Shown one piece after another: positions 16,082 through 32,759 of a stretch of DNA of 64,000 bases. This DNA is from Aurantiacibacter marinus. Lineage in GTDB: Bacteria > Pseudomonadota > Alphaproteobacteria > Sphingomonadales > Sphingomonadaceae. Both the position numbers and the translations under genes were made by a program. The number at the start of each line of letters is the position of its first letter. Positions within the stretch are counted from its first letter, which is position 1. The notes under the pieces were generated by a model. It searched no databases and was not told the DNA's origin. It worked only from the letters and a program-made list of their open reading frames with translations. The stretch lies in assembly GCF_001021555.1 (NCBI RefSeq), contig NZ_LDCP01000001.1, positions 558,001 through 622,000 of the forward strand. Reading direction: 5' to 3'.

Positions 16082-16153
16082 AGTATACCGGTACCGTAGA
16101 AGAACCGGCTGTTCCCCAAGAATAGCTTTTGGAAACCTGATCGCGGGGATTGT

Positions 16154-16188
16154 CCCTTCCCTTCCTGTTCTCGCAGGCAAGGGAAGGG
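16154..16188. terminator. Stem-loop between convergent genes
   Basis: A 10-bp perfect inverted repeat (CCCTTCCCTT at 16154-16163, AAGGGAAGGG at 16179-16188) is extended by a CCTG/CAGG pairing in the loop. It lies between the convergent ends of the beta-helix gene and the methyltransferase gene, where a bidirectional terminator is expected. There is no clear U-tract on either side, so it may act with Rho or only stabilise 3' ends. Confidence 0.5.
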
Positions 16189-16200
16189 AGATTTCTGCGA

Positions 16201-16902: not shown

Positions 16903-16969
16903 CGTTTTTCCTTAATCTTGTGACGCTTCGATGGCCGGAAGCGATAATACGGCCGGCACAGACGTGATC

Positions 16970-18025
16970 CTATGTGGACTGAAGTGGCAGCCACCAATCC
17001 TCGTTCTCAAGGTACCAGGATAGTGTTTGTGAGATCCCTTCTTCGAATCCGCGCGATGGGGCGTAATTCAATTCGCTGCGTGCCTTGGTTTCGTCGATGG
17101 CATAACGTCTGTCGTGACCCTTGCGATCCGTCACGAATTTCTTGAGCGATGCAGTTGGCTTCCCAAGTGCGGCAGGCGCGCCGGGGAAGCGATTTGCAAG
17201 CCCATCGACCCGCGTGAAGGCGCGGTCGACTTCGGCGCAGATGTGGTCGATCACAGCCATGTTCGGCAATTCGGCGCCGCCGCCGATGTTATATGTTTCA
17301 CCGGGCTGACCGCCGTTCAAACATGCTTCGATGCCGCGGCAGTGATCGACCACGTGCAGCCAGTCCCGCACATTCATTCCATCACCATAAATTGGCAGGT
17401 CGCGGCCATGCAGGGCATTCAGCAGGAAAAGCGGGATCAGCTTTTCAGGATATTGGTAGGGTCCATAGTTGTTGGAGCAATTGCTGGTTGTCACTTCCAG
17501 CCCGTAGGTGTGGTGATAGGCCCGCACGAGATGGTCGGACGCCGCCTTCGAGGCTGAGTAAGGCGAGTTGGGTTGATACTGGTGAGTTTCGCTGAAGGCC
17601 GGATCTTCGGGGCCGAGGGAGCCGTAGACTTCGTCGGTAGAGATGTGATGGAAGCGGTGCGGCCTGCCGCTGCCTTCGTCCAGCCATACTGCCCGCGCAG
17701 CTTTCAACAGGCTGTTGGTGCCAAGGATATTGGTATCGATGAAGGCATCCGGCCCGGTGATGGATCGGTCGACATGGCTTTCGGCTGCGAAGTGGACGAC
17801 GGTGGAAATTTCCCGCTCTCGCAGCAGCTTTTCGACGAGTGCTGTATCGCGAATATCGCCAATAACCAGTTCGGTTTTTTCGACCCCCGCAATCGTGGAT
17901 TCATTGCCCGCGTAGGTCAGGCAATCGAGCACGATTAGCGTATCATCGGGGTGCTTTTCCGCCCAGTAATGAACGAAGTTGCCACCGATAAAGCCGGCAC
18001 CCCCAGTGACCAGAAGGTTAGCCAA
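16970..18025 (-). CDS. rfbB: dTDP-glucose 4,6-dehydratase
   Basis: A 351-residue extended short-chain dehydrogenase. NAD binding is at the N-terminus (LVTGGAGFIGGNFVHYW), the active site has the T-D-E triad (HHISTDEVYGSL) and YSASKAASD carries the catalytic Tyr-Lys. It converts dTDP-glucose to dTDP-4-keto-6-deoxyglucose, the second step to dTDP-L-rhamnose. I place the start at TTG 18025 (MANLLVTGG), preceded by GGAGAAAC; the longer frame adds 27 residues unrelated to the family. The start lies 8 nt inside the end of rfbD, so the four rfb genes overlap in one operon. Confidence 0.95.
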   Translation of the reverse strand: MANLLVTGGAGFIGGNFVHYWAEKHPDDTLIVLDCLTYAGNESTIAGVEKTELVIGDIRDTALVEKLLREREISTVVHFAAESHVDRSITGPDAFIDTNILGTNSLLKAARAVWLDEGSGRPHRFHHISTDEVYGSLGPEDPAFSETHQYQPNSPYSASKAASDHLVRAYHHTYGLEVTTSNCSNNYGPYQYPEKLIPLFLLNALHGRDLPIYGDGMNVRDWLHVVDHCRGIEACLNGGQPGETYNIGGGAELPNMAVIDHICAEVDRAFTRVDGLANRFPGAPAALGKPTASLKKFVTDRKGHDRRYAIDETKARSELNYAPSRGFEEGISQTLSWYLENEDWWLPLQST

Positions 18026-18866
18026 AATGTTTCTCCGCTCGTAGCATGTGGCGCAAATTGGTGCGCCAATGGGTATGGCCGTCGTCCAGCAGTTCCCGCG
18101 TCGCACTGCAGTCGAGCAGCGAGAAAGCCGGGCGCCTGGCAGGCGTGGGGTAGCCCGCGCTGCTTATCGGAATGATTGGCACGCTGCGATCAAGCAGGCC
18201 CAGCGCGTGCGCTTCTTCCTGAATGGCAACGGCAAAATCATACCAGCTTGCAACGCCTGCATCGCTATGATGAAAAGCGCCCGCCGCATTGGCGGCAACC
18301 AGCCCCCAAATGGCTTTTGCGAGGCCCGGAGCCCATGTAGGCGTGCCAATCTGATCGGAAACGACGCGCAGTTCGTCTTTTTCGGCCATCAACCTCAGCA
18401 TGGTTCGAACGAAGTTTGCGCCCCCGGCAGTGTAGACCCATGACGTGCGCACCAAAAGATCAGTACCGCGCAAGTGGTCCTCTCCTTTTGCTTTGGTGCT
18501 ACCATAGACTGACAGCGGGTTACGCGTATCTTCGGGGCGGTACGGGCGGCTGGATGCTCCATCGAAGACGAAATCCGTCGAGACATGAACCAGCTTGCCG
18601 CGATGCGCAGTTACCAATGCGGCGACTGCGTCGGCATTGATAGCGTGTGCCGTTTGTTCGTCACTTTCCGCCTTATCGACAGCGGTATAAGCCGCGGCAT
18701 TGATGATCAGATCCGGAGCCGCATTGCTCACCAATGCCGCTATTGCTGTGCCATCGGTCAGGTCGCAATCGGCGATATCAACGGCGTGGATCGTAATTCC
18801 GGCTGGCGCAGTTTCCTTCAAGGCACGGCCCAGCTGCCCTGCGGCCCCTGTAATGAGAACTTTCAC
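18018..18866 (-). CDS. rfbD: dTDP-4-dehydrorhamnose reductase
   Basis: A 282-residue SDR enzyme. It has the NADP-binding KVLITGAAGQLGRAL, the substrate site VHVSTDFVFDGASSRPYRPEDTRNPLSVYGSTKAKGE with Tyr and Lys of the YxxxK motif, and LLVRTSWVYTAGGANFV. It performs the last reduction to dTDP-L-rhamnose. The GTG at 18866 is the chosen start because it gives the family N-terminus and overlaps the rfbC stop by 4 nt (GTGA); a longer frame from 18947 would overlap rfbC extensively. Confidence 0.94.
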   Translation of the reverse strand: MKVLITGAAGQLGRALKETAPAGITIHAVDIADCDLTDGTAIAALVSNAAPDLIINAAAYTAVDKAESDEQTAHAINADAVAALVTAHRGKLVHVSTDFVFDGASSRPYRPEDTRNPLSVYGSTKAKGEDHLRGTDLLVRTSWVYTAGGANFVRTMLRLMAEKDELRVVSDQIGTPTWAPGLAKAIWGLVAANAAGAFHHSDAGVASWYDFAVAIQEEAHALGLLDRSVPIIPISSAGYPTPARRPAFSLLDCSATRELLDDGHTHWRTNLRHMLRAEKHFG

Positions 18867-19408
18867 GCGAAAGCCTTGATCGACTTTAGCGGCAGACCTT
18901 CGCGATCTTTTGCCGACAGCTGGACAGTCAATCCTTCTGTTGGCCAATCGATGGCGACCTCGGGATCGTCCCAGGCCAGCGAATGCTCATTTCCGGGGGC
19001 ATAGGAGGCATCGCATTTGTAAAGAAAGTCAGTGTCGTCCTCTAGCGTTAGGAACCCATGCGCGAAGCCCTGCGGCACCCAGAACATCCGCTTGTTCTCG
19101 GCGGAAAGTTCCACACCTGTCCATTTGCCAAAGCCGGGCGAACTGCGGCGCAGATCCACCGCGACATCGAATACCGCACCAGACACGACACGCACCAGCT
19201 TGCCCTGTGGCCCCGGGTTCTGGAAATGCATGCCGCGCAAAACACCCTTTTGCGAGCGGGAGTGATTGTCCTGAACGAAATTCGGATTGAGGCCGGCGCT
19301 TGCGAATTTTGCAGCGCTCCAGCTTTCCATGAAAAATCCGCGTTCATCTCCGAATACATCGGGTTCGATGATCAGCGGACCTTCGATCTCGCACGGGATC
19401 ATCTGCAT
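18863..19408 (-). CDS. rfbC: dTDP-4-dehydrorhamnose 3,5-epimerase
   Basis: A 181-residue cupin-fold epimerase of typical length. Motifs are the N-terminal PLIIEPDVFGDERGFFMESW, the active-site His in FVQDNHSRSQKGVLRGMHFQNP, VDLRRSSPGFGKW, and FWVPQGFAHGFLTLEDDTDFLYKCD. It epimerises C3 and C5 of dTDP-4-keto-6-deoxyglucose. Start and stop are shared with the neighbours (TGATG with rfbA, GTGA with rfbD), which indicates translational coupling. Confidence 0.95.
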   Translation of the reverse strand: MQMIPCEIEGPLIIEPDVFGDERGFFMESWSAAKFASAGLNPNFVQDNHSRSQKGVLRGMHFQNPGPQGKLVRVVSGAVFDVAVDLRRSSPGFGKWTGVELSAENKRMFWVPQGFAHGFLTLEDDTDFLYKCDASYAPGNEHSLAWDDPEVAIDWPTEGLTVQLSAKDREGLPLKSIKAFA

Positions 19409-20298
19409 CAGTGGCGGCCTTCGGCAAGTAGCGACATCAGATATCTGCCGTATCCCGACTTCACGAGCGGAGCGGCGATTTCTTCAAGACGTGCATCGTC
19501 GATAAAGCCCTTGCGCCAGGCAATTTCTTCCGGGCAGCAAATCTTGAGACCTTGGCGCTCTTCGGTGATGCGAACGTAAGTAGCTGCATCCAGCAAAGAG
19601 CCATGCGTGCCGGTGTCCAGCCAGGCAAATCCGCGCCCCATCATCTCTACCGAGAGTTGGCCTTCGTCCATGTACAAGCGGTTCAGATCGGTGATTTCCA
19701 GCTCACCGCGCACCGAAGGCTGCAGTTCGCGGGCGCGATCCACCACAGTCTCATCGTAGAAATACAGGCCTGTCACAGCATAATTCGACTTGGGTTGTGC
19801 TGGTTTTTCTTCGATCGAGGAAGCGCGGCCATTTTCATCGAAAGCCACCACACCGTAAGCGGTAGGATCGTCGACCCTGTAGGCGAACACAGTGGCGCCG
19901 GTCGTGCGTTGGTGGGCGCTTCCAAGCACATCGGGCAGGCCATGGCCGTAAAAAATATTGTCGCCAAGAACCAGTGCGCTGGGATGGCCGGAGACAAAGT
20001 CCGCACCGATATGGAAGGCCTGGGCCAGTCCTTCAGGATTGGGCTGCACTGCATAGCTCAAATCCACACCGAAATCCGACCCGTCACCCAGCACGCGTTG
20101 GAATTGAGCCAAGTCTTCAGGCGTGGTTATTATCAATATCTCACGAATGCCTGCCAGCATCAGCGTGCTGAGCGGGTAATAGATCATCGGTTTGTCGAAA
20201 ACCGGCATCAGCTGTTTTGATACACCGCGAGTAAGCGGATAAAGCCGCGTTCCCGAACCACCGGCCAGGATGATGCCCCTTCGTCGCTGCCCTGCCAT
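19408..20298 (-). CDS. rfbA: Glucose-1-phosphate thymidylyltransferase
   Basis: A 296-residue nucleotidyltransferase. Its signatures are [76 protein letters not shown] and [15 protein letters not shown]. It makes dTDP-glucose from glucose-1-phosphate and dTTP, the committed step to dTDP-rhamnose. It is the first gene of the rfbA-rfbC-rfbD-rfbB operon, transcribed away from the lasso cluster. The 126-bp spacer to the nucleotidyltransferase gene must hold promoters in both directions. Confidence 0.96.
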
Positions 20299-20424
20299 GA
20301 TTTTGCCCTGTCAGTGTGAATACTTATGCCGCATTGCAGCATCATGTGTTCCGGTCAACTCCAATTGGGTTTGACAGGCGGTGATGATTTGACATGGAGA
20401 GACTGGAGAACCTAGCGGTTTGTT

Positions 20425-21621
20425 ATGGCCCGCGCACCGCACCGTTTTGATGACTTTGATCATGATCTGGAGTTTCAGGGCGGTCCCGATTCCCGGACAT
20501 TCTTGCGCGATGCGATGCTGGGTGCCGCGACGTGGCCGTCAACCGAAAATCTGGAATCTGATGGTGCCCGCTTATGGCCAATCATCCAATTTCATGGTTG
20601 TGCGCTGGCGATCGCGCAGCACCGGGGAAGTCTTGCCGGATGGCCGGAAGCACTTGCCGGACGCATAAGGGACGAAGCGCGTTTACAGGCAGTTTGGGAG
20701 GCGACCCACAAGGCTGCTTTGAAAAAACTGCTTTCCGCTATGGCCGATGCGGATCTGGAGCTTTTGGTCATCAAGGGCACTGCGATTGCCTATGATGTAT
20801 TTCCCGATCCTGCCCTAAGGCGCCGGGGTGACACCGATTTGCTTGCGAGACCTCGCGACGCAAATGCGGTCCGGCAGGTGTTGCGCGAATTGGACTGCCA
20901 GCGGGTGGCACAGATGTCCCTGCAGGAGGATTGGCGCTTTCCGCCTCAGGCAGGTTTCCATCATCTGTTCGACCTTCATTGGCAGGCATCGTCCGCGCCG
21001 GGTCTGCGGGGGCTATACGAAGCAGAAGAAGCGTTCCTGCGGTCAGTAAAATTGCCGGGCCTGAGTGATCAGGCGCGCGCTACAGATCCGGTCCTGACCT
21101 TCATGAGCGATGCACTGAATCAGGCAATGCACAGTGTGGCCGGGTATCTTGTCGACGGTGAAGTCAAACGCGGTGGCCACCGCCTCATCTGGTCCTATGG
21201 GACATATCTGCAGGCCAGCAGATTCACCGATACCCAATGGTCGCAATTGCGGGACTTGTGCTGCGAACGCGGACTTGCGCAGATCTGTTTGCGCTCACTT
21301 GACCGGGCCGAAGACGATTTCGGGACCTGCGTCCCCGAAAGCATTCGGGCAGCGCTGGTGCGAGAAGGAGACAGCGGCGAGATCGACCGTTTCGTACTGC
21401 ACGCAGGTACCTGGGAGAGATTTCGCTTCAATTTCGGCCATGCCGCCAATTGGGCGCAGCGCGTCGATGTCCTGCGTGCCAATCTTTTCAGTAATGAAGA
21501 TTTTTTGCGCCGCAAATATCCAGATATGGCCTCAATGCCGTTGGCGCTGCTGCGTTTGCGGCGTTTGTCGCAGGCGCCGCTTTCTCTGGTAAAATCAATA
21601 ACGGGCCGCAGATCGGCTTAG
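20425..21621 (+). CDS. Uncharacterised nucleotidyltransferase of the lasso cluster (NTP_transf_5-like)
   Basis: A 398-residue soluble protein. It has the minimal nucleotidyltransferase fold: LLVIKGTAIAYDVFPDPALRRRGDTDLLAR, with KGTA at 117-120 and the metal-binding GDTD at 135-138. A helical domain with FHHLFDLHWQ follows, the arrangement of the uncharacterised NTP_transf_5 family. Such genes recur in proteobacterial and Firmicute lasso clusters next to HPr-kinase-like and PqqD-like genes, where a nucleotidyl- or phospho-transfer to the peptide is suspected. It is on the plus strand and ends 13 nt from the convergent end of the PqqD-like gene. A role in tailoring is inferred from context only. 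Confidence 0.78.
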   Translation: MARAPHRFDDFDHDLEFQGGPDSRTFLRDAMLGAATWPSTENLESDGARLWPIIQFHGCALAIAQHRGSLAGWPEALAGRIRDEARLQAVWEATHKAALKKLLSAMADADLELLVIKGTAIAYDVFPDPALRRRGDTDLLARPRDANAVRQVLRELDCQRVAQMSLQEDWRFPPQAGFHHLFDLHWQASSAPGLRGLYEAEEAFLRSVKLPGLSDQARATDPVLTFMSDALNQAMHSVAGYLVDGEVKRGGHRLIWSYGTYLQASRFTDTQWSQLRDLCCERGLAQICLRSLDRAEDDFGTCVPESIRAALVREGDSGEIDRFVLHAGTWERFRFNFGHAANWAQRVDVLRANLFSNEDFLRRKYPDMASMPLALLRLRRLSQAPLSLVKSITGRRSA

Positions 21622-21634
21622 CGCTTGGCCGCCC

Positions 21635-21910
21635 TCATGCGACCAGCCCGTTGGCCTGCAAGTCTGATATCAGCGCCTTGATATCGCTTTCGATCACATC
21701 GTCAGGGGCATCGAAGGTGCTTGCAACCAGGCTGCACAGGTCGGCAAGCGTGCGCGGCCCATCTTCAAGCGCTGTCCATATTGCGCCGCCGACCGCATTC
21801 AGGCCGAAATAGGTGCCAGCTTCGAGATCAAGCAAGACGGTCTCTCCCCCTACTTCCCGGGCGACCACATTTTCATTGCGGGTGACAATTTCATTTTCGC
21901 TTATGGTCAT
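21635..21910 (-). CDS. Lasso peptide B1 protein (PqqD-like leader-recognition element)
   Basis: A 91-residue PqqD-family protein. It shows the three-strand, three-helix RRE fold: IVTRNENVVAREVGGETVLLDLEAGTYFGLNAVGGAIWTALEDG, then a helical end with LCSLVASTFDAPDDVIESDIKALISDLQANGLV. In lasso biosynthesis this element binds the conserved YxxPxL leader segment and presents the precursor to the B2 protease. It is the last gene of the methyltransferase-kinase-B1 operon (9 nt after the kinase stop). B1 and B2 are separate genes here, as in Gram-positive and some proteobacterial clusters, and unlike the fused McjB of microcin J25. Confidence 0.88.
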   Translation of the reverse strand: MTISENEIVTRNENVVAREVGGETVLLDLEAGTYFGLNAVGGAIWTALEDGPRTLADLCSLVASTFDAPDDVIESDIKALISDLQANGLVA

Positions 21911-21919
21911 GTTGGAATG

Positions 21920-22765
21920 TTACCGCCCCAAAAGGTCTTCCGCCAGCAGATTCACGACTGCGGGCAGAACGCTGAAGCGTCGCGGATAATCGAGCATCAA
22001 GAATGGAACTGCCTGCACAAGGTTGGACAGGCGGAAGAAATGTGCAGACAAGCGAGCCTTGTCCTCGACATCCAGAACGAACGCATGACGCATGATTTCG
22101 GTAAGAGCCTGACTGGCACCGAGCCGCGTAATTTTGGGCATTTCAGCATCGCCCGGGCCAAGCACGTAGATTGCCCTCAGTACGACTGGCCGTGTCGCAA
22201 AGGGCAGCGCCTCTCCGGCATCCAGCGCTGCCTTTTGCTGACCGTCGAACGTGTCGCAGTCTGCGCCGGTCAAATAGGCGGCACTATCGCCAAAAACCCG
22301 CAAGACAGGGCGGACCGGTTGAAGCAAGAATCCCTGGTCCGATAAATCCAGGGCGATCGAATCCTCGCTCAGGAAAGGATGGCCGGCGCGGGCACAAGCG
22401 CCTGCCAGAGTGGTCTTTCCGCGCCGTGACGTGCCAACAAACGCCGCGCCAACGCCGCCAAAATCCACAGCACTTCCATGCAGGTTGAGACCGCCGGCAT
22501 GATTGCCAATCAGCGGGGTTACCGAATTGGCAAATAGCGTATCGATCACTGTTTGCGCAATTCCGGGTGCAGGAATGCAAACTATCTGCGTCAGCTTTTT
22601 CGAAATATGGAAATCGGCGTTGCCAGGGAAGCGGACCAGGAAACCACTATCTTCACGGTAAAACTCGGCTGCAATATCGCCGTCTGGTGTGACCCAGCGA
22701 TCGTAAGGGGCACCGCTGACCGAAACCTGCTCGCATTCGGCAGCCAAACTGAATTCTCTGCTCAT
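21920..22765 (-). CDS. HPr-kinase-like protein of the lasso cluster
   Basis: A 281-residue protein related to the C-terminal domain of HPr kinase. The P-loop is AAFVGTSRRGKTTLAGA (lysine at 117). The second acidic motif is FLSEDSIAL (133-135), where HPr kinases have S/D-D. The preceding NLHGSAVDFGGV is typical of the lasso-associated subgroup. Homologues such as those of paeninodin-type clusters phosphorylate the C-terminal serine of the precursor. The precursor here ends in Phe, so either an internal Ser/Thr is the target or the protein has another function. Start ATG 22765 overlaps the methyltransferase stop by 4 nt. Confidence 0.83.
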   Translation of the reverse strand: MSREFSLAAECEQVSVSGAPYDRWVTPDGDIAAEFYREDSGFLVRFPGNADFHISKKLTQIVCIPAPGIAQTVIDTLFANSVTPLIGNHAGGLNLHGSAVDFGGVGAAFVGTSRRGKTTLAGACARAGHPFLSEDSIALDLSDQGFLLQPVRPVLRVFGDSAAYLTGADCDTFDGQQKAALDAGEALPFATRPVVLRAIYVLGPGDAEMPKITRLGASQALTEIMRHAFVLDVEDKARLSAHFFRLSNLVQAVPFLMLDYPRRFSVLPAVVNLLAEDLLGR

Positions 22766-23883
22766 CGCGTATATTTTTTCAAAGTGTCGCGCACGAATAC
22801 GCGCGCCCGCTCTGGCGTTGGGCAGATATCCGGCTGTGTCTCCAGCAGTTTGTGCTCTATTTCTGCGGCACTGATCCCATCACCGACAAGTTGCAGGACA
22901 GCCAGTACTGCATCGCCTTTGCTGCTGCGTTTCGGTGACTTTACGACACCTGGCGCCAGATCTGCGGGTTCCAATATGGTACTGTGCCAAGTGGACATGG
23001 ACTGCTTTTTGCCGCCCAAGGGTTGGACCGTCCACGATATAAAAGCCGGATCGTGGCGGATTGTGAATGATGCGCGCACCGTGTCCCCAGCCTTCACCGC
23101 GAATGGCCTCCTGACAGGCAGGAAGCCATTTGCGCGGTCTATCCGGTCTTCTGCCAGCGGCGAGTTTGTCATCCGGACGGAACGCGACAAGGTGCAATCG
23201 AAAAAGCCTGCAATGCCGTGGCACACAGCATCGCGCGCCGCGATCAGTTCTATATCGCAGCACATCGTAACGCCTGGTTCCTGATTAAAGTCGACGCTGG
23301 CAATAGTGACGGCCGGAGACACCTGGTCGCTTGCGGCCAACCTGATCGCGTGTTGTGAATTGACCCCATGCTCTTGCAGCCAGCGCAGGTTTTCAGGGAC
23401 AGGTTCGCGAGACCACCGGTCCGCCAGCGCGTATGCGTCCTCGCTTTCGACGAGCGCCACACCGATATTCATACGTTCCGGTATGATCCGTCCGCCCGGC
23501 CGCAGCATGCGGGCCCGCGCATCAGCCAGCATCGCGATAATGCCGTAATCGAACCCGAAATAGCCGACATGGTCGCAAATCAGCACATCAACCGGTTGGG
23601 GCAGAGAAATGTCGAAAGTAGAGCCGCGCATCAGGCGATAGCTATCCGTCAGCCCTTCTCGTCGCGCGGTTTCGCGCGCTATTTCGACAGCGTCCGAACT
23701 ATCTATACCGTAACATCGCGCAGCGCCCGCTTTGAGCGCCAGTATTCCCAGCACGCCGAACCCGCAGCCCAGATCTGCGACAATATCACCGTCACGGATC
23801 GTTTCGCCAAGCGCGCGCTCGAACAGCGGTAAGCGGTTGGCCAGTGCGAGGTAGTTATAATGTTCGTCCAGAAGGCGCGGCAT
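22762..23883 (-). CDS. PRMT-like methyltransferase with C-terminal helical domain
   Basis: A 373-residue class I AdoMet methyltransferase. Motif I is DIVADLGCGFGVLGILALKAGA (residues 33-54), the ribose-binding acidic residue is D61 (YGIDSSD), and the DVLICDHVGYFGFDYGII stretch (99-116) lies where arginine methyltransferases have the double-E loop. A beta-barrel-like part follows (about 140-285). A C-terminal helical, winged-helix-like domain occupies residues 300-373. The DH at 104-105 replaces the first Glu of the PRMT loop, and the predicted core peptide has no Arg, so a carboxylate or another protein may be the substrate. It is the first gene after the precursor's terminator. Confidence 0.8.
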   Translation of the reverse strand: MPRLLDEHYNYLALANRLPLFERALGETIRDGDIVADLGCGFGVLGILALKAGAARCYGIDSSDAVEIARETARREGLTDSYRLMRGSTFDISLPQPVDVLICDHVGYFGFDYGIIAMLADARARMLRPGGRIIPERMNIGVALVESEDAYALADRWSREPVPENLRWLQEHGVNSQHAIRLAASDQVSPAVTIASVDFNQEPGVTMCCDIELIAARDAVCHGIAGFFDCTLSRSVRMTNSPLAEDRIDRANGFLPVRRPFAVKAGDTVRASFTIRHDPAFISWTVQPLGGKKQSMSTWHSTILEPADLAPGVVKSPKRSSKGDAVLAVLQLVGDGISAAEIEHKLLETQPDICPTPERARVFVRDTLKKYTR

Positions 23884-23951
23884 GCAGCATCATGTCCACA
23901 ACTTGTATCCGCAGCGCAATGCCCAAGAGCACTATTGGCGTACGCCATACG

Positions 23952-23978
23952 AAAAACGCCCCGAAAAGGGCGCTTTTC
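23952..23978 (-). terminator. Terminator/attenuator downstream of the lasso precursor
   Basis: The stem AAAA-CGCCC (23953-23961) pairs with GGGCG-TTTT (23968-23977, one bulged C) around a CGAAAA loop. On the minus strand it ends in a GTTTTTC run about 30 nt after the precursor stop. Read-through would supply the methyltransferase-kinase-B1 genes at a lower level than the precursor. Confidence 0.65.
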
Positions 23979-24009
23979 TTAGTTCAATTTAACAGCGAAG
24001 GAACAGCTA

Positions 24010-24141
24010 TCAGAACATGTCCATTGTAGTGCTGTCGCCTGTGGTAGTGCCGCCGCTGCCGCCGGTCAGATTGCGAACGCTGCCGAAAGCGGTCAGAGCA
24101 GGACGTTCGTAACGGGACTTCTTTTCGTTAGTTTTTTCCAT
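24010..24141 (-). CDS. Lasso peptide precursor
   Basis: This 43-residue ORF starts at ATG 24141 with AAGGGTG upstream and lies 15 nt after the cyclase stop. The leader contains the lasso recognition pattern Y11-x2-P14-x-L16-x3-G20-x5-T26 (YERPALTAFGSVRNLT). By the rule that Thr is at position -2, cleavage falls after Gly27. The 16-residue core is then GSGGTTTGDSTTMDMF, with Gly1 as ring amine and Asp9 as ring acid: a nine-residue macrolactam and a seven-residue tail containing Asp14 and two Met. The core lacks Arg, Lys, His, Trp and Tyr; the only bulky plug candidates are the two Met and Phe16. A ring from Gly27 would need ten residues, outside the usual 7-9. Confidence 0.9.
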   Translation of the reverse strand: MEKTNEKKSRYERPALTAFGSVRNLTGGSGGTTTGDSTTMDMF

Positions 24142-24156
24142 GTCATCACCCTTACG

Positions 24157-26058
24157 TTAATGATCGCGTGACTGCAGCGCAAATGTTGCAGATGCGAACG
24201 CGCCCCATAATTCCCAGATCGCGCCAGAGTCAATATCAGTTTTACCATGTCGATTGAAAAGAGAGGCAACTCTATTCTGGCTGACGAGACCTGATAAAGG
24301 CGGCATAGTCATCTCCTTCTCGCAAACCAAGCGGGTTGCGCGGTGCAGATCGTAAAAAGTTGTATCAAAGAATGCCTTGTCTCGGCGCAGGCGGACTGTT
24401 TCCGGCAAAATACCTTTCAAGGCCTCTCGGTGGATATACTTGCGAAGCTTCCCGCGTCTGCGAAGATATTCTGGCGTAGTGGTGCTGAATTCCATGAACC
24501 GGCGTGACAGCATCGGATGACGATATTCGAATCCGTGCCGCGCAGATTGCAAATTGACCATTTCCATCGCGAGCACGGTATAGGGATCGAGCCACCTGGC
24601 GATTTTTTGCCGAGCTGACGGAGAAGAATTGGAGAGGCGTCGGTCATACGCGTCTTTCCTGTGCGCCAGGTCTTCCTGCGCACTGGGTGACAGCCAGTAA
24701 TTGGCCTCCAGGTCATCCGCCATGGGTCCGTCAGGGTCTCTCGCTGTGATCCTTTTGACCGCAGTCTTTACGGATTCTGGCAAAAGCCAAGCGGCTGTTT
24801 GCCGCACGCCTTTCCTGGCAGCGTAGGAAAAGCCGAAATCGCGGCGGTCAGCGGCAATGCTCCTTAGGCCTGCAGACCAATGATGGAGGGACAATGCCTC
24901 GAGCAATTGGTTGTTGCCGCCGTTCAGCCAATGGTCCCCGCCATGACCGGTAAGGGCAACGCGGCAGTTCGCATCCCTGATTGCGCGATGAATCCCTGTA
25001 TTCATGACAGCATTTGGGGGGAAAGGGGGTGTCGCATCCGATGCTGACTGATCGAGAAACCAGTCTAGCCCCGGCTGGAACAGCTCCGCAGCAGCCAGAA
25101 CGCGTCCCGTATGCTCTGCAACTGCGCCACTGTACTGCCTTTCGTCAGAGATGTCGTCTTCGATGCCTGCCAAAGTGAAACCATGCAGCGAATGGGCTGG
25201 CAGCCTGCCGTTTTTGATCGCCCTGTCCGCGAGGCAGAAAATGGCCGAGGAATCCAATCCGCCACTTACCTCAATCGCGAGCGCCCGATTGGTTCGTGAA
25301 GTGCGGCAGACGAGATCGTCCAGCATTTCCCGGTAATGTTCGAAATACTCTTCCTCTCTTGCGTAAAGGATCGAAACTTCGGTTGGGAGTTGCCAGTATT
25401 GCCGCACGCGCGGCTTTGTGTCGCCGATTTCGAGTGATAGCTGATGCGCTGGCGCCAGCTTCATTACGCCCTGCCACGCAGTTTCATCTTGTGTGTACCA
25501 TTCGTTGGCAAGGTGCTCTGCGAGATAGCCAGTATTTACCTCAGGTTTCCGGTCCAGCGCGGCAACAATGGCGGCGATGTCCGATGCCACCAGCAAGACG
25601 CGCCCATCCCAATGGAAGGTTAGCGGCCTCATGCCGAAATGATCCCGTGCACAAATGATACGCCGTTTGGCAGCGTCCCAGATCACAAAGGAAAATTCGC
25701 CCTCAAGCTTAGGGAATAGGGCTTCGCCCCATTTCCGGAAGCCTTGTAACACGACCTCGGCGTCGGACATGTCGCGGCAAACCTGATTATGTGAAGACAG
25801 GTCGGCGCGAAGCTCTGGCGTATTTAAAAGATAGCCATCAAAAACGAGTGTAAAACGTTTGTCGGGGCAGACATGTGGCGCAGCAAGAGCCTCGGTACCG
25901 TCCGTATTTTGCGCCAATTGACAAAGCGCGACGGGACCAAGGGAACTGTAGATCGCGCCATCGGGTGCACGATAGTCCATTTTATCGACCATGCGCGCCA
26001 AACGGAGATCGTCAGCTGGCGCACCGTTGGTGCACAGTATCGCGGCAATCCCTGCCAT
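24157..26058 (-). CDS. Lasso cyclase (asparagine-synthetase-like, C protein)
   Basis: A 633-residue protein of the asparagine synthetase B family. The N-terminal glutaminase-like domain begins MAGIAAIL, so the catalytic Cys2 of true synthetases is replaced by Ala and glutamine hydrolysis is not expected. The synthetase domain carries the PP-loop EVSGGLDSSAIF (SGGLDSS at 265-271) and VALTGHGGDHWLNGG. This is the signature of lasso cyclases, which adenylate the ring Asp/Glu side chain for attack by the core N-terminus. It sits between the 2OG oxygenase (5-nt gap) and the precursor (15-nt gap) in one operon. Confidence 0.92.
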   Translation of the reverse strand: MAGIAAILCTNGAPADDLRLARMVDKMDYRAPDGAIYSSLGPVALCQLAQNTDGTEALAAPHVCPDKRFTLVFDGYLLNTPELRADLSSHNQVCRDMSDAEVVLQGFRKWGEALFPKLEGEFSFVIWDAAKRRIICARDHFGMRPLTFHWDGRVLLVASDIAAIVAALDRKPEVNTGYLAEHLANEWYTQDETAWQGVMKLAPAHQLSLEIGDTKPRVRQYWQLPTEVSILYAREEEYFEHYREMLDDLVCRTSRTNRALAIEVSGGLDSSAIFCLADRAIKNGRLPAHSLHGFTLAGIEDDISDERQYSGAVAEHTGRVLAAAELFQPGLDWFLDQSASDATPPFPPNAVMNTGIHRAIRDANCRVALTGHGGDHWLNGGNNQLLEALSLHHWSAGLRSIAADRRDFGFSYAARKGVRQTAAWLLPESVKTAVKRITARDPDGPMADDLEANYWLSPSAQEDLAHRKDAYDRRLSNSSPSARQKIARWLDPYTVLAMEMVNLQSARHGFEYRHPMLSRRFMEFSTTTPEYLRRRGKLRKYIHREALKGILPETVRLRRDKAFFDTTFYDLHRATRLVCEKEMTMPPLSGLVSQNRVASLFNRHGKTDIDSGAIWELWGAFASATFALQSRDH

Positions 26059-26063
26059 CTTGC

Positions 26064-26939
26064 CTAGCGCGCCTGACTTAAGCGACCATCAAGCAGGTCG
26101 AACAGCGGTTGCAACTCCGGCAGGTCGAAATGCTCTATCCAACCTGATGGATTCACAAGCATGGAGCATCCCGCCGGGAAATAATGGAAGAAGAGCAGGT
26201 CGCAATTGCCGTTATCGGGCATCGCGTCACGATAATGCCATTGCGAACTGCCGCAAAAAAATACCGCTTTGTTCGGCCGCAACGCAATCGGTTCAAATCG
26301 GATCTGCGGATCGGCGATCGCGTCCGCGCCGGACTGCGGCCCGCCTGCCGCACTTGGCCATTCAACGATCTGGCTGAAATGAATAGGCCAATCCACCGTT
26401 TGCGAAATGCAGTAATCAAGCGTGTACATTGATATCGGTTGATCCATGTGCGGATCACAGCGACCTGCGTTGCCGTAACGGCTGAGGAAATTATATCCCG
26501 TTTCCAGTTCGCGGCCGGCCAGCCTGCTCGCAAGCGGCAGTAATTTGCGCTGCAGGTCAATAAATGGGGCGTGGTCGTGCACTACATACCGCCCGAAAGA
26601 GCTGATTTCGTGCTTTTCCAACTTATCATGCGCGATGCCTGCCATTTCCATTTTGACTGCAGCATGGCCGGCATCATCAAGCAGATCGTCTATCACTGCA
26701 GGTGTAAAATCAGGCGAAGGCTTCAGAATGGAAAAACCATCGACAAAATACGCAAGTTTTTCGGGAGCTGCCAAGGCGAGAAAGGCCTTTGCTGCTTCGA
26801 ACCGACGCAGGAAAACCGAATCATACCAGTCGAAACGATCAAGGTCGCGAAGTACTTTGACTGCGATGAGATGGCCGTCCAGATAGGCAGGATCGCCAAG
26901 CCGGGGCAACAAGCTCAAGTGGGTTTGACTATCGGACAA
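26064..26939 (-). CDS. Fe(II)/2-oxoglutarate-dependent oxygenase-like protein of the lasso cluster
   Basis: A 291-residue protein that begins at a TTG (26939); an in-frame stop 8 codons upstream limits alternatives, and no ATG occurs before residue 97. The C-terminal half looks like a double-stranded beta-helix oxygenase. NFLSRYGNAGRCDPHMDQPIS supplies H164-x-D166, GSSQWHYRDAMP supplies H235 with R237 nearby, and CDLLFFHYF forms the last strand. The HxD...H iron triad is complete. As first gene of the oxygenase-cyclase-precursor operon it is a strong candidate to hydroxylate the peptide, as CanE does in canucin biosynthesis. The substrate and residue are inferred. Confidence 0.75.
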   Translation of the reverse strand: MSDSQTHLSLLPRLGDPAYLDGHLIAVKVLRDLDRFDWYDSVFLRRFEAAKAFLALAAPEKLAYFVDGFSILKPSPDFTPAVIDDLLDDAGHAAVKMEMAGIAHDKLEKHEISSFGRYVVHDHAPFIDLQRKLLPLASRLAGRELETGYNFLSRYGNAGRCDPHMDQPISMYTLDYCISQTVDWPIHFSQIVEWPSAAGGPQSGADAIADPQIRFEPIALRPNKAVFFCGSSQWHYRDAMPDNGNCDLLFFHYFPAGCSMLVNPSGWIEHFDLPELQPLFDLLDGRLSQAR

Positions 26940-27096
26940 TTGGTGCGCCTGCAGGTAGTATCATGACGTCACAAGCTAGATGGCATCGGACGATGGCGCC
27001 AGATGCTTCGTGAGAACTGAGCGGTTTGCAGTAATTGCAATGAAGCGGCTGGCTTCCCCTTGGCGAGAGCGACATGGCATGGCAGCAGCATAATCG

Positions 27097-27561
27097 ATGT
27101 CTAATCCTGCACCTGATTCCCGTTTTCAAAGGCTGGCGCGGCGGGCCTGCAGTCTTCCGGCCAACGCGCCACCATACGCACGCGCCACGTGGGAAGTTGC
27201 CATAGCCCGTTTGCGTTTTTCAACGATCACACCGCAGAAAATCGAGCAAGAGAATCACAAGATTACTCGCAAGTGCCGGTCTCCCGATGCGGCTGAGCCC
27301 GGCGATCTGGAGCATGTGCGCAGGATAGGACCATTACTTGGCCGGGTAGCAGCGCGTGTGCCTTGGAGATCGGATTGTCTGATCGAAGCCCTTGCTGGAC
27401 AGCGATGGCTATCGCGCTGCGGCATTGCTACAATTGTTGTGATGGGAGTGCGCAAAACGGCGTCGAAGCCGTTGGAGGCACATGCATGGCTCGTCTACGG
27501 AAATCACGTGGTTACAGGAGGCGATCCCTCAGGCTACGAGGCCATTATCCGAGCAGAATGA
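27097..27561 (+). CDS. Lasso peptide B2 protein (transglutaminase-like leader peptidase)
   Basis: A 154-residue cysteine protease of the lasso B2 family. The catalytic triad is visible as VPWRSDCLIEALAGQRWL (C94), LEAHAWLVYG (H129) and VVTGGD (D143). It removes the leader after the Thr at -2. The gene is divergent from the oxygenase-cyclase-precursor operon, with 157 bp between the start codons that must hold promoters in both directions. That spacer contains the palindrome TGACGTCA at 26964-26971. The length and the separate B1 gene agree with split-B clusters. Confidence 0.88.
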   Translation: MSNPAPDSRFQRLARRACSLPANAPPYARATWEVAIARLRFSTITPQKIEQENHKITRKCRSPDAAEPGDLEHVRRIGPLLGRVAARVPWRSDCLIEALAGQRWLSRCGIATIVVMGVRKTASKPLEAHAWLVYGNHVVTGGDPSGYEAIIRAE

Positions 27562-27699
27562 TTGCCGGAAACGTACCAAATCATCTTTTCCGCAGAGAAA
27601 AAAATTAAGTAATTACCCTTATCGAGCCTTGCATCGAATGTTGCAGCGCGGTATGCGCCTTAAATATCGAGATTAAAGTCCGTCCTAGGAGACGCCGTT

Positions 27700-27969
27700 A
27701 TGAAGAATGTACTCGCATCTGTTGCCGCTGTTGGCCTCGTTTTCGCGCCGATTGCTGCACAAGCGAACACCCGCGCCGCAGACGCTGGCGTGCTTATCGA
27801 GCGCGCCCCTGCTGCCATGACTGGCTCCTCGATGCTTGCCAACGAAGAAGATGACCGAGGCAATCTTTACTTGCTCATCAGCCTTTTCGTGATCGCAGCT
27901 GGTATCGCTATTGCGATTAGTGGCGACGCATCGGAAGGTGATGACGCTTCGCCAGGCACCGGTGGCTAA
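27700..27969 (+). CDS. Small exported membrane protein, unknown function
   Basis: An 89-residue protein with TAGGAG ahead of its ATG. It has a signal peptide (residues 1-22, cleaved near AQA-NTR), an acidic linker with NEEDDRGN, one membrane helix (YLLISLFVIAAGIAIAIS, about 57-74), and an acidic Gly/Ser-rich tail ending SPGTGG. I do not recognise the family. It overlaps or abuts the O-antigen-ligase-family gene and is probably co-expressed with it. Small proteins of this build are often seen beside capsule or XrtA-type surface loci. Confidence 0.7.
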   Translation: MKNVLASVAAVGLVFAPIAAQANTRAADAGVLIERAPAAMTGSSMLANEEDDRGNLYLLISLFVIAAGIAIAISGDASEGDDASPGTGG

Positions 27970-29341
27970 TTCGGCGGGGGCGCCAGTCGCCCCCTCTAAT
28001 TTGCCGGGCTTGTCGCCGGGAAGTCTCACTTCTCCGCAACTCCACCTTAAGATCCTGACCGTGCTCGCGCTGTTTCTTGGCGGCGGTGGCTTGGCATATG
28101 GTTTGCACAACCTGGTGATCCAGTTGTGCGCGCTCCTGATTCTTGCGGTTCATCGCGAAACAGCCCTGCGGTTCATACGCGATGCGCCACTCGCGCTGCG
28201 TGTGTTGGTCGGCGCAAGCCTTGCCTTGCCGCTATTGCAGCTCGTTCCGCTTCCGCCTGAGATCTGGCAATCCCTCCCTGCCCGCGAGCCCATTGTGGCC
28301 GGTTTGGAACTGGTTGGTACCAACGCGAACGCCTGGTTCCCGGCCAGCGTTGATCCGGCCCGCACACTGGTCGCATTCTGCGGCACCTTGGCGCCAGCAA
28401 CCATCATAGCGATCGGCTCCATGCTCCCGGCTGAGCAAAGGCTCTCGCTTGTGCGCGCTGCATTGTGGGCATGCCTTGCTGCGTTTGCATTGGGCGTTTT
28501 CCAATACACCTCTGCGAACACGGCGGGTTTGCTTTATTCAGAGCGCACCAGTGCAGACACGTTCTACGCAACCTTCACCAACCGCAATTCGACCGCGCTT
28601 CTGTTTGTGCTCGCTCTTGCGCTATTGGCCGGCATGCCGCGACCAAAATCTCCACTGTGGATTTGGATTGCAGGAGCCGCTGCTTCTCTTTTTGCACTCG
28701 CGGTAATCCTGACGCAGTCACGTTCAGGCATGGCGATCGGAGCCTTGGTTGGCGCATTTTTGTTGTTCCGTCTGGGGTTCGACTTGCTGCGCCGCCGCGA
28801 TGCCGGCGATGCCCCCAAAGCCCGTACGATCATCATGGCCCTGGCCGGTTTGGCGTTGTTGGGCACCGTTCTAGGCACTTCTTTCCTGTCGGGCGGCCGC
28901 ATTGCCGATAGCCTCGATCGCTTTTCTGCCGGGGCTGCAGACCGACCCGAAATGTGGGACGACGGCACCTATGCTGCCGGGCAGTACTGGCCTGTCGGGA
29001 GCGGGATGGGCACGTTTGATGAAGTATTCCAATTGCATGAATCACTGGAATACATATCGCCGCGCAAAGCAGGACGCGCGCATAGTGATTGGCTGGAAAT
29101 AGCCATAGAGGGCGGCCTCGCGGCTTTGGTACTGGGGATGGCATGGCTGGCATGGTGCGCGACTAACGCAATTCCGCGGCGGTCGTCGCCAAATCCGTGG
29201 ATGCCGCTAGCGGCGGGCGTGGGCATAGCATGCATCGCGCTTCAGTCATTGATCGACTATCCTCTGCGCAATCAGACATTGCTGTGCTTTGCTGCGCTAC
29301 TGATCGTGATGCTTGTGCGTGAACGGGATGAGGTGCGATGA
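27941..29341 (+). CDS. O-antigen ligase/polymerase family membrane protein
   Basis: A polytopic membrane protein of about 466 residues. It has the Wzy_C/WaaL-type loop WPVGSGMGTFDEVFQLHESLEYISPRKAGRAHSDWLEIAIEGGLAALVLG near residues 345-395, including the conserved H-S-D-W-L-E, which is the hallmark of this superfamily. The start is uncertain: ATG 27941 (after GGAAGG) lies inside the preceding small gene; TTG 27911 and GTG 27962 are alternatives. It could ligate or polymerise a second surface glycan, distinct from the product of the 10.5-kb polymerase. It is coupled (ATGA) to the next gene. Confidence 0.82.
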   Translation: MTLRQAPVANSAGAPVAPSNLPGLSPGSLTSPQLHLKILTVLALFLGGGGLAYGLHNLVIQLCALLILAVHRETALRFIRDAPLALRVLVGASLALPLLQLVPLPPEIWQSLPAREPIVAGLELVGTNANAWFPASVDPARTLVAFCGTLAPATIIAIGSMLPAEQRLSLVRAALWACLAAFALGVFQYTSANTAGLLYSERTSADTFYATFTNRNSTALLFVLALALLAGMPRPKSPLWIWIAGAAASLFALAVILTQSRSGMAIGALVGAFLLFRLGFDLLRRRDAGDAPKARTIIMALAGLALLGTVLGTSFLSGGRIADSLDRFSAGAADRPEMWDDGTYAAGQYWPVGSGMGTFDEVFQLHESLEYISPRKAGRAHSDWLEIAIEGGLAALVLGMAWLAWCATNAIPRRSSPNPWMPLAAGVGIACIALQSLIDYPLRNQTLLCFAALLIVMLVRERDEVR

Positions 29342-30045
29342 TCGGGCGGTTTGCCTGGTGGGCTGTTCTTGCAGCCATTGGTATTGTCACGGGGTTTGCG
29401 CAGATCGACCGGTCGGCGCGCTTTACGCCGCACCTCGCATCCTTGGTTCCGCCCGCATTCTCCGGATTTGCAGCCGAACAGCGCACGCGTCAGGCCATTG
29501 CAGCGCAGCAGCCAGATCGGGCAATTGCGGAGGCGAAGGCTCTCGTTGCAGCTCGTCCTCTGCCAGCGGAGAATCTAGCCCTGTTTGCAATCGCTGCCGC
29601 GATGAACGAGCAGAATGATCAGTCAATCGCCGCGATAGAGGCGGCCAGCACACGCGGTTGGCGCGCGCCAATCATCCAGCAGGCGGTGGCGCAGGCGGCG
29701 CTTGAACAGGGCGAATATGATCGCGCTGCGCAGCGCATTGCAGCACTGCTTGCAACAGGGTCCGCCCGCGATTTTGCGCTCGATCTGGCGGCCCGGTTGA
29801 CGACAACGCAGGAGGGGCAAGCTGCCTTTGCCCGGCAGTATGCCGCGCCCGGCCACTGGCAGGACAACGCTGTGCGGCAGTTGGGAACCACGATGCCGGC
29901 CCAAGACTTTGCAGCGACACTGGCAATGGCAGAAGAGCTGGGCGCAAGCATCAATTGCGGCCGGCTACGGAACATCATCCAGCGCTACGAGCGCGAGGGT
30001 CAAACCGTCCCCGCCGCGCGCCTCCGGGAAATTTGCCCGGATTAA
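29338..30045 (+). CDS. Membrane-anchored TPR-like protein, unknown function
   Basis: A 235-residue protein with one N-terminal membrane segment (residues 4-23), followed by an Ala/Gln-rich all-helical domain with TPR-like helix pairs (RQAIAAQQPDRAIAEAKALVAARP, AIEAASTRGWRAPIIQQAVAQAALEQGEYDRAAQRIAALL). The start overlaps the previous stop by 4 nt, so it is co-translated with the O-antigen-ligase-family protein and may scaffold it in the periplasm. Its end overlaps the convergent end of lptA by 4 nt. I cannot assign a family. Confidence 0.72.
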   Translation: MIGRFAWWAVLAAIGIVTGFAQIDRSARFTPHLASLVPPAFSGFAAEQRTRQAIAAQQPDRAIAEAKALVAARPLPAENLALFAIAAAMNEQNDQSIAAIEAASTRGWRAPIIQQAVAQAALEQGEYDRAAQRIAALLATGSARDFALDLAARLTTTQEGQAAFARQYAAPGHWQDNAVRQLGTTMPAQDFAATLAMAEELGASINCGRLRNIIQRYEREGQTVPAARLREICPD

Positions 30046-30638
30046 TCGCTTTCAGGGACCGCAAAGGTTCCTGAAACCCGCCCGGCATTCTGGCCATCGG
30101 CTGGCCGCGAACCCGCGCCATCCACGCTGGATACGCCGGTATTGAGATCAATCGTCAGTCGCCCGCCATCAAGCCTGTCGGTGCCGCGATTGAGAGCAAC
30201 GCCGCCGGACATAACAATCACCCGGCGATTGAAATCATAAACTGCTGCATCGCCTCGCGCCCGCTCTGATCCGCGTGTGACGATTACACCACCGGTCGCA
30301 TCGATCCGCTGGATACGCAGAGTGCCTGCATCGGTGTAGGCGATGGTGGTGCGCTCTGCCGTCAGTCGCAGATCGCCTTGCTCGATAATGACATTGCCCG
30401 AAAGAACGACGCGGTTTTGCCGATCCTGCAACTGGCCGAAATCTGCCGACCATGTGACAGGCGTGTTTGCGCTCAAACCGGCAATATTCTGCGCTTCGGC
30501 CGATGAACCGAACGCAAAAGCACTGGCTGTACCCGCAAGCAGCCCGGCAAAAAGCCCGCGAATGGCAAGCTTACGCAGGCCTGCGCGCGGTGTGATCGGA
30601 TGCGTCTGTGTGGTCTCGGTCATTTCAGTCGCCTTCAT
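30042..30638 (-). CDS. lptA: LPS transport periplasmic protein LptA
   Basis: A 198-residue protein with an N-terminal signal sequence (hydrophobic stretch about residues 24-48, AEAQ cleavage). A beta-jellyroll of the OstA/LptA type follows: VVLSGNVIIEQGDLRLTAERTTIAYTDAG, RIDATGGVIVTRGSERARGDAAVYDFNRRVIVMSGGVALNRGTDRLDGGRLTIDLNTG. LptA bridges LptC and LptD, carrying LPS across the periplasm. It follows lptC directly (start and stop share a base). The usual next gene, lptB, is absent; the neighbour is a convergent glycan gene. Confidence 0.9.
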   Translation of the reverse strand: MKATEMTETTQTHPITPRAGLRKLAIRGLFAGLLAGTASAFAFGSSAEAQNIAGLSANTPVTWSADFGQLQDRQNRVVLSGNVIIEQGDLRLTAERTTIAYTDAGTLRIQRIDATGGVIVTRGSERARGDAAVYDFNRRVIVMSGGVALNRGTDRLDGGRLTIDLNTGVSSVDGAGSRPADGQNAGRVSGTFAVPESD

Positions 30639-31291
30639 TACATACCGCTCGGCAGACGCAACTGGCCGGGAACCATGGTCATGCGGGCATTGCCTTCAAG
30701 AGTGATGGTGCGTGCATTGAGATCCGCCCGCATGGAATCTGCAGAAAACCGGCCTGCCGGCACTTCTCCACTGACGCGGCCCTGCCCGAACAAGCTGCGG
30801 TTTGCGAGATCGATCGTCACATTGCGAGCGGACATCTCGTAACCGTCAGAAGCTGTAAATTGCACGATGTCGGGAACGCGCACCTGTTCATCATCAATGG
30901 CATATGTGCCGGCAGAAGCGGACAGGATCGCTGGTCCTTCCGGCAGCACGATCCGCGCGACCAGATCCTTCATCTCGACCTGGGGCACGGCATTGCTGCG
31001 TTGTACGGCTTCACCGGCATTGAGCGAAAAGGGACGGCCCCGCCGGTCCTGCCCGCGGTACATGGCATCGTCCACGCGCATCCTGTCGTCAGCCATCGCC
31101 ACCTTGTTGCGGTCCAGCAGGAAGCTGATTTCGCCGCGCGGAGACAGGGGCGTGATAACCATCAGTGCCGCTACGACGCCAACCAGGGCAGGCAATCCAA
31201 TCGCAAGCAGGCGCACGATCCGGTCAAGCGCGCTGCCCGGTGCGGCAAAAGCCTGGCGCCTGGTGCGCATCTGATCGGCAGCAATTGTCAT
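30638..31291 (-). CDS. lptC: LPS export system protein LptC
   Basis: A 217-residue protein with one N-terminal membrane helix (about residues 28-47, LLAIGLPALVGVVAALMVI) and a periplasmic jellyroll. The LptC-family segments MADDRMRVDDAMYRGQDRRGRPFSLNAGEA and ADSMRADLNARTITLEGNARM are visible. It receives LPS from the LptBFG transporter and passes it to LptA. It lies between the RNase D-like gene (35-nt gap) and lptA, the order commonly seen in alphaproteobacteria. Confidence 0.9.
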   Translation of the reverse strand: MTIAADQMRTRRQAFAAPGSALDRIVRLLAIGLPALVGVVAALMVITPLSPRGEISFLLDRNKVAMADDRMRVDDAMYRGQDRRGRPFSLNAGEAVQRSNAVPQVEMKDLVARIVLPEGPAILSASAGTYAIDDEQVRVPDIVQFTASDGYEMSARNVTIDLANRSLFGQGRVSGEVPAGRFSADSMRADLNARTITLEGNARMTMVPGQLRLPSGM

Positions 31292-31326
31292 TTCCGCAAG
31301 CTATGTGCTCCTGAAAGCGGGCAATT

Positions 31327-31944: not shown

Positions 31945-32026
31945 TGTGGAACAGCCTTTAGGCGGATTGGGGATTGGAGGGAAGGGCGGCTTTGCGCTCC
32001 TGTTTGTCTGGCCTAAACCATGCAGC

Positions 32027-32710: not shown

Positions 32711-32742
32711 CGTATCCTCCACACCGATGAGAAGGTGACAAA

Positions 32743-32759
32743 GGTTACACTGTGTAACC
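32743..32759. promoter_or_regulatory. Palindrome GGTTACACTGTGTAACC with a repeated half site
   Basis: A perfect 8-bp inverted repeat around a central T. The half GGTTACACT recurs in the same orientation at 32816-32824. Size and symmetry fit a dimeric repressor or activator site. No regulator gene is adjacent, so the binding protein is unknown. Confidence 0.4.

Follow-up and report, generated by a model that had tools for sequence, protein, structure and literature searches.

A lasso peptide gene cluster of Aurantiacibacter marinus encodes a putative PRMT-fold methyltransferase whose presence across relatives tracks with methionine in the core peptide

Here we describe a cluster of eight genes at positions 20425-27561 of a 64,000-nt stretch of Aurantiacibacter marinus DNA (hereafter, the window), which we read with great confidence as a lasso peptide pathway and which encodes a protein arginine methyltransferase (PRMT)-like methyltransferase (MT). 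Across related clusters an intact MT accompanies methionine in the tail of the core peptide, and comparison of these sequences suggests, at a probability that we place near 0.5, that tail methionine (Met13 and/or Met15 of the window core) is the target of S-methylation by MT. A wider proposal, in which a PRMT fold has become a peptide methionine S-methyltransferase, lasso peptides encoded in a surface-polysaccharide locus have had an encoded Arg swapped for a sulfonium Met, and several family members mature from precursors ending in a phage-tail-type, possibly self-cleaving S74 chaperone domain, is put forward tentatively, with the odds somewhat against it. In kind, the lasso cluster is unexceptional; what sets it apart is the presence in it of an HprK-like kinase (K), a PF14907 nucleotidyltransferase (N), the PRMT-fold MT, and a protein of Fe(II)/2-oxoglutarate (Fe/2OG) oxygenase-like fold (ox). 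An initial annotation of the window had recognized the lasso pathway, a reading that stands, but it named only the precursor (A), B1, B2, and C; although it allowed for "tailoring shifts", its text omits the kinase, methyltransferase, oxygenase, and nucleotidyltransferase genes lying inside its coordinates, the absence of an exporter gene, and the association, throughout the family, of MT with tails lacking basic residues.

Precursors of the window's kind were found, and cores obtained by the pattern used, in 54 of the 62 records examined (window included). The relation between MT and Met was written down from 10 cores, after which 44 more were read. Of the 29 clusters with an intact MT, 28 have tail Met, as against 1 of the 25 without (20/21 and 1/23, respectively, among the 44 later cores, by subtraction), while Met anywhere in the core occurs in 29/29 and 3/25 (p = 2.9e-12). 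Core Arg is reversed, occurring in 7/29 clusters with MT versus 23/25 without (p = 3.8e-7); both p-values are from Fisher tests that ignore relatedness. When all 20 amino acids were tested for presence in the core, the next after Met and Arg was Phe (p = 0.012). Tail Arg or Lys is found in all 25 clusters without intact MT and in 8 of the 29 with it. By position, the penultimate core residue is Met in 14/30 MT-containing cores and Arg in 19/26 MT-lacking cores, and M15-F16 of the window (...D-M-F) stands where many MT-lacking relatives have R15-F16 (...S-R-F).

A natural deletion follows the same pattern. The MT of locus L098 lacks about residues 101-196, and has thus lost the active-site loop, and the core of this locus (GSGGTRGDGQLGQTRL) has Arg15 and no Met. 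On account of its broken gene, L098 was counted as lacking MT, a rule adopted once the locus had been seen. A locus found later (L234) has MT with the active-site residues of the window type (D..Y, see below) and tail Met, and precursors encoded away from a main cluster agree: L187 and L188, in genomes with MT, carry Met, and L189, in a genome without MT, carries Arg and no Met. On a four-protein tree, a likelihood test of correlated evolution gave a likelihood ratio of 24.1 (p = 7.7e-5).

MT (METHYLTRANSFERASE) is assigned a PRMT fold by sequence search and structure prediction: its phmmer match to PRMT3 has an E-value of 5e-20, and its predicted structure (mean pLDDT 84) matches CARM1 and PRMT3 in Foldseek with an E-value of 1e-26 and TMt up to 0.85. 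It shares the catalytic fold of these type I PRMTs and differs from them at the two double-E glutamates. SEWMGYFLLFE of PRMT3 aligns with CDHVGYFGFDY of the window, so that the first Glu becomes Asp104 and the second Tyr113, and the double-E loop of PRMTs is absent from the window MT. Within the window's subfamily, D104 and Y113 are found in 31 of the 31 proteins having the region, which L098 lacks. Among 25 other alphaproteobacterial PRMT-like proteins, by comparison, E..E is found in 18 and the first Glu is kept in 24; in a sister subfamily of nine loci the pair is D..E in six, D..Q in two, and D..G in one. Tyr at the second Glu position goes with tails mostly lacking Arg. MT is about 315 residues long in L060, L091, L093, L097, and L115, where the C-terminal ~60 residues of the window protein, a largely helical part of its model, are missing.

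Several points weigh against S-methylation of tail Met. The link between MT and Met over 54 loci, from which the proposal is drawn, is a correlation and not biochemistry, and Met might serve in recognition, or as a plug, rather than carry the methyl group. If L098 is scored as possessing MT, the tail-Met tally becomes 28/30 versus 1/24. Parsimony requires seven changes for MT and six for tail Met, hence few independent events; the likelihood test used our own script, a quick tree, equal root weights, and two optimiser starts; and a sign test on independent pairs was not significant (five supported pairs, median p = 0.125), with one and three supported pairs on the single-protein trees of K and C, respectively. 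Two loci are exceptions, L091 having MT with Met only in the ring, and L099 having two tail Met without MT. Finally, tails of the sister subfamily carry both Met and Arg (RRA, RRP, RKL and alike), so that the substrate there may be either Met or Arg.

Because the correlation cannot separate a target from a recognition element, MT might instead methylate another core site (a tail Asp, a Thr or Ser, or a backbone amide), Met merely being needed nearby by the enzyme or by the threaded shape. We know of no PRMT-fold enzyme acting on a thioether, which counts in favour of this alternative; we nevertheless consider it unlikely, since Met alone is present in all MT-containing cores and mostly missing from MT-lacking ones. 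Formation of a C-terminal methyl ester, as by StspM on lassomycin-like peptides, is an established tailoring of lasso peptides, with tolerance for varied substrates (PMC9266682), but it would leave the link with Met unexplained, and the fold found here by search is that of PRMTs, the template used in modelling StspM having been a mitomycin O-methyltransferase (PMC9266682); we regard it as distinctly improbable. StspM/LasF and the PIMT-type lasso methyltransferases likewise reside in lasso clusters, but they belong to other enzyme families and carry out C-terminal ester and aspartimide chemistry (PMC9266682). Least credible is arginine N-methylation. It would fit the PRMT fold, and the sister subfamily keeps the second Glu in 6/9 loci and Arg in its tails; however, the window core has no Arg and both glutamates are replaced, and for these reasons it was rejected as the main role of MT. 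The Arg of the leader motif SVRNL is common to precursors with and without MT, and therefore cannot explain the pattern of MT and Met.

S-methylation of tail Met by MT would, if true, be a new modification for lasso peptides, and would show a PRMT fold taking on a different substrate by way of its two key glutamates. The nearest precedent is longipeptin A, a ribosomally synthesized and post-translationally modified peptide (RiPP) with a sulfonium Met13, set beside the window MT by description; it is the only RiPP case of sulfonium Met in the excerpted text of a methyltransferase review, where LopH is unproven as the enzyme and longipeptin A is not described as a lasso peptide (PMC11285071). 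The clusters described here make the question of Met S-methylation testable, since they offer a defined enzyme family, one natural deletion, and dozens of cores paired with it. A lasso peptide with a sulfonium methionine had no match in the open-licence literature, and we found no paper there, among the matches listed, on the tailoring set, the exchange of Met and Arg with MT, or the S74 fusions (subscription papers and preprints lie outside this scope). None of the listed matches of a search on S74 and tail fibres contained "lasso peptide", nor did any listed match of one on lasso and PRMT, although the latter search was broad and says little. Lasso clusters of Erythrobacter have already been predicted, as predictions only (PMC9723273).

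The assignment to the lasso class rests on several features, most of which the initial annotation had noted and which hold on inspection. The 43-residue precursor has the full leader claimed for it (Y11, P14, L16, G20, and T26 in the YxxPxLxxxGxxxxxT register) and scores 23.8 bits against lasso_leader_L3 (NF033521, cut-off 19). With the core starting at Gly28, the leader Tyr lies at -17, YxxPxL spans -17 to -12, and Thr lies at -2. This register, together with conservation of Gly1 and Asp8/9 among relatives, supports both the proposed cleavage after Gly27 and the Gly1-Asp9 ring. Core Gly1 is found in 56/56 cores, Asp8 in 50/56 and Asp9 in 6/56, and such conservation over 54 of 62 records indicates that the window precursor is not a chance reading frame. 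B2 does contain the C94/H129/D143 triad, with C94 and H129 identical in 48/48 proteins (window included) and Asp in 34, Glu in 8, and other residues in 6 at the D143 column, and it exceeds the NF033537 cut-off (64.8 bits versus 33). B1 is PqqD-like as proposed (PF05402, 69.1 bits, cut-off 23.4), and lasso-specific PqqD models match it below their cut-offs. C begins MAGI and so lacks the glutaminase Cys, as had been stated; position 2 is Cys in 0/49 aligned proteins, window included (Ser 34, Thr 12, Ala 3), with a gap in nine more. Its best NCBIfam match is lasso cyclase NF033535, at 261 bits against a cut-off of 525, which leaves some doubt as to the lasso class. The window thus combines a YxxPxL leader, Thr(-2), a B2 Cys-His-Asp triad, a PqqD-like B1, a cyclase without the Cys, and core Gly1 and Asp9. 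The core had also been thought unreported, and neither it nor the motif SVRNLTGG has a match in the open-licence (PMC) literature. The suggestion of Met13, Met15, or Phe16 as steric plug is reframed, since Met is the residue type whose presence goes with MT.

The doubt over C lends some weight to a product that is a cyclised but unthreaded peptide, or a polysaccharide-linked anchor, rather than a free lasso peptide, as do the few bulky tail residues, the location in a polysaccharide locus, and the absence of a local exporter in the window. The B1, B2, and C homologues with their conserved residues, and agreement with the sequence requirements of the class, speak against such a product, which we judge quite improbable.

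K matches Hpr_kinase_C weakly (15.9 bits, below cut-off) but has the hallmarks of lasso precursor kinases, namely the motif His, a P-loop GKT, and an acidic pair (E134-D135), in the spacing of BsfK. H96, G116, K117, and D135 are identical in 60/60 proteins with a residue there, and the first motif Asp is replaced by Glu in 55/60. Core residue 2 is Ser in 55/56 and Thr in 1/56. No other hydroxyl residue is shared by almost all of the cores, which makes Ser2 the best candidate acceptor; by analogy, we lean slightly towards its phosphorylation by K. Against this step stands the fact that it rests on analogy with characterised kinases that target a C-terminal Ser or Ser3. BsfK of Bradymonas phosphorylates Ser3 of a precursor with Ile(-2) in its leader (PMC10368454). 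The Bradymonas and window clusters share A, B1, B2, C, K, and N genes, the kinase motif spacing, and an acceptor Ser near the core N terminus, while the window differs in its candidate Ser2, Thr(-2), Glu for the first motif Asp, and added MT and ox (PMC10368454). A related core at L234:8200 has Met2 and Ser3, the latter being the position that BsfK phosphorylates. The paeninodin kinase, ThcoK, SyanK, and PsmK modify a C-terminal Ser; they are likewise lasso precursor kinases, and the pseudomycoidin pathway also has an annotated nucleotidyltransferase, PsmN, reported to add hexose on phosphoserine (PMC9266682). The window core, unlike theirs, has no C-terminal Ser but ends in Phe, and phosphorylation of the paeninodin type was ruled out on this ground.

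No Pfam or NCBIfam match and no convincing PDB sequence match was obtained for ox. Its AlphaFold model (pLDDT 89.9) matched HalD, ALKBH6, EctD, SnoN, and HygX in Foldseek with E-values of 3e-7 to 3e-6 and TM scores of just 0.41-0.62, and H164, D166, H235, and R237 are invariant in 13/13 aligned proteins. We consider ox a putative Fe/2OG-type protein with a double-stranded beta-helix fold and an HxD...H motif, the distal His and the 2-oxoglutarate-binding residue being assigned by inspection. It co-occurs solely with MT (12/29 clusters with MT, 0/25 without; p = 1.7e-4, ignoring relatedness, and with some clusters cut at contig ends). A by-eye impression that ox-containing cores have a small residue at position 3 was dropped, as such residues are common in MT-lacking cores as well. 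By description, ox resembles the Fe/2OG-type oxygenase of the canucin cluster, CanE, which hydroxylates the C-terminal Asp14 of canucin (PMC9266682).

In the pathway that we propose, which includes three tailoring steps, family membership leads us to expect that B1 would bind the YxxPxL leader, B2 would cut after Gly27, and C would join Gly1 to Asp9. K, aided by B1, would phosphorylate Ser2, and N may then act on the resulting phosphoserine, the role proposed for PsmN in the pseudomycoidin pathway. MT, its arginine-binding glutamates lost, would S-methylate Met13 and/or Met15, which is the main new claim, and the sulfonium Met would serve as a bulky cation replacing the Arg or Lys of MT-lacking relatives. 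ox would probably hydroxylate one precursor residue. Calculated values for the predicted products are [M+H]+ 1547.599 for the lasso peptide, M+ 1561.615 with one S-methyl, M+ 1641.581 with one S-methyl and a phosphate, M+ 1657.576 with a hydroxyl in addition, and M2+ 788.319 with two S-methyl groups. As no exporter gene is present in the cluster, export would proceed via a transporter encoded elsewhere, possibly that of the genome's own second lasso-like cluster.

In nine of the 54 loci the main-cluster precursor runs on past the core into SDxRxK[EQ]N... (L031, L032, L088, L089, L092, L094, L095, L097, and L101), as do two orphan precursors away from a main cluster (L187:9848 and L188:9809). 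Pfam Peptidase_S74 scored above its cut-off in 4/4 tested fusions, with profile position 1 at the Ser right after the core. All nine retain this Ser and a Lys five residues further along, a spacing which we take to be that of the MyRF dyad, and MyRF is the best sequence match of the S74 fusion among solved structures (E-value 1.5e-5). Cutting at the fusion Ser would release cores of 15-18 residues in eight cases and 23 in one. As the MyRF domain cuts itself by a Ser-Lys dyad, and only as a trimer (PMC8326128), the S74 domain is, by analogy, possibly self-cleaving; counter to this, the fusions stop soon past VDYxxLGI, apparently short of the C-terminal helix by which MyRF is driven to trimerize. 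As C-terminal domains of lasso precursors they would be of a new kind. In the window's genus, six genomes, five of which are of the S74 type, have no local B2, and each of the six has a PF13471 protein elsewhere, compared with 3/7 tested genomes with a local B2 (6/6 versus 3/7, p = 0.07), so that B2 might work in trans. Locus L104 is an MT cluster in which no local precursor was found, and the same genome has an S74-fused precursor (L187) about 210 kb off, an arrangement that suggests processing in trans.

Table 1. Genes of the cluster and of its borders in the window.
Feature	Position	Strand	Details
N, PF14907 nucleotidyltransferase	20425..21621	+	398 aa; Pfam
B1, PqqD-like leader-binding protein (RiPP recognition element)	21635..21910	-	91 aa; PF05402
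K, HprK-like lasso precursor kinase	21920..22765	-	281 aa; H96, G111, G116, K117, T118, E134, D135
MT, PRMT-fold methyltransferase, S-adenosylmethionine (SAM)	22762..23883	-	373 aa; D104 and Y113 at double-E positions
A, precursor peptide	24010..24141	-	43 aa; leader 24141-24061 (27 aa); core GSGGTTTGDSTTMDMF 24060-24013; translation and NF033521 above cut-off
C, lasso-type macrolactam cyclase	24157..26058	-	633 aa; no Cys2; PF00733 119.8 bits
ox, putative Fe(II)/2-oxoglutarate oxygenase	26064..26939	-	291 aa; TTG start in open reading frame (ORF) list
B2, leader peptidase	27097..27561	+	154 aa; C94, H129, D143; PF13471 and NF033537
Left border, rfbC and rfbA homologues (dTDP-rhamnose)	18863..20298	-	RmlD and epimerase families adjoin
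Right border, Wzy_C O-antigen ligase family	27911..29341	+	PF04932; ORF, true start probably inside

The minus-strand genes are arranged in the order ox, C, A, MT, K, B1, with B2 divergent and N convergent (Table 1). No ABC exporter gene lies between N and B1, and a transporter search of window positions 15001-33000 gave no match; an ABC transporter is missing at this position in 13/20 loci of the window's genus (window included) and present in 33/35 of a second genus. The second lasso-like cluster of the same genome (L019, C3:40000-57000) has a kinase, a cyclase, a nucleotidyltransferase-like ORF, B2, and an ABC transporter, the last being a distant homologue (28%); a sulfotransferase-like ORF was also seen by eye, and no precursor was identified. 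Between B2 and the O-antigen ligase, window positions 27700-27969 encode a small secreted-looking protein with tblastn homologues in 20/62 records (window included).

Relatives were collected with three queries: ox against 296 genomes of the order (6 strong matches, one being the window itself, plus 5 weaker ones), C against 298 genomes of the family (10 matches), and K against 397 genomes of the family (14 matches in three genera). In the two main genera, K matches at an E-value of 1e-15 were present in 21/40 and 44/114 genomes, including the distant L102 and nine of the sister type. A contig scan of genomes gave 23 matches, 18 of them in genomes already sampled and 5 distant at 27-31% identity. 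Eight records yielded no core and were left out of the counts: L018 has ox alone; L019 and L102 are lasso-like clusters of other types; in L104 and L113 no precursor was found locally, and L113 gave no C match either; and L132-L134 belong to the sister subfamily. Homologous clusters occur in Alteraurantiacibacter (two named members), Erythrobacter, and a third genus. On the four-protein tree the sister of the window is L093 (support 99), assigned to Erythrobacter sp. EC-HK427, with the core GSGGMLNGDSTSMDML.

The usual site of the cluster is between dTDP-rhamnose genes and an O-antigen ligase. Setting aside L019 and L102, there are 59 loci with K, of which rfbA or rfbC flank 48, a ligase homologue flanks 55, and both are present in 47; some, not all, of the loci without both borders end at contig ends. 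Border homologues near K loci are 66-84% (rfbC) and 76-87% (rfbA) identical, and N is present in 58/59 of these loci. A search for rfbA in eight K-less genomes of the window's genus matched four. In one (L228) the ligase and rfbA are 366 bases apart, representing an empty site, and beyond the ligase (L228:1149-6161) lies a more distant lasso-like cluster with K-, C-, and N-like ORFs; no ligase was found close to rfbA in the remaining three. L018:12190-13062 encodes a homologue of ox (about 41% identity), other lasso genes not being found in the 19 kb examined. The sister subfamily (L132-L134 and L235-L240) shares this chromosomal site of the K loci, its genes being ordered differently, and has two precursors each in L132 and L240 and three in L237.

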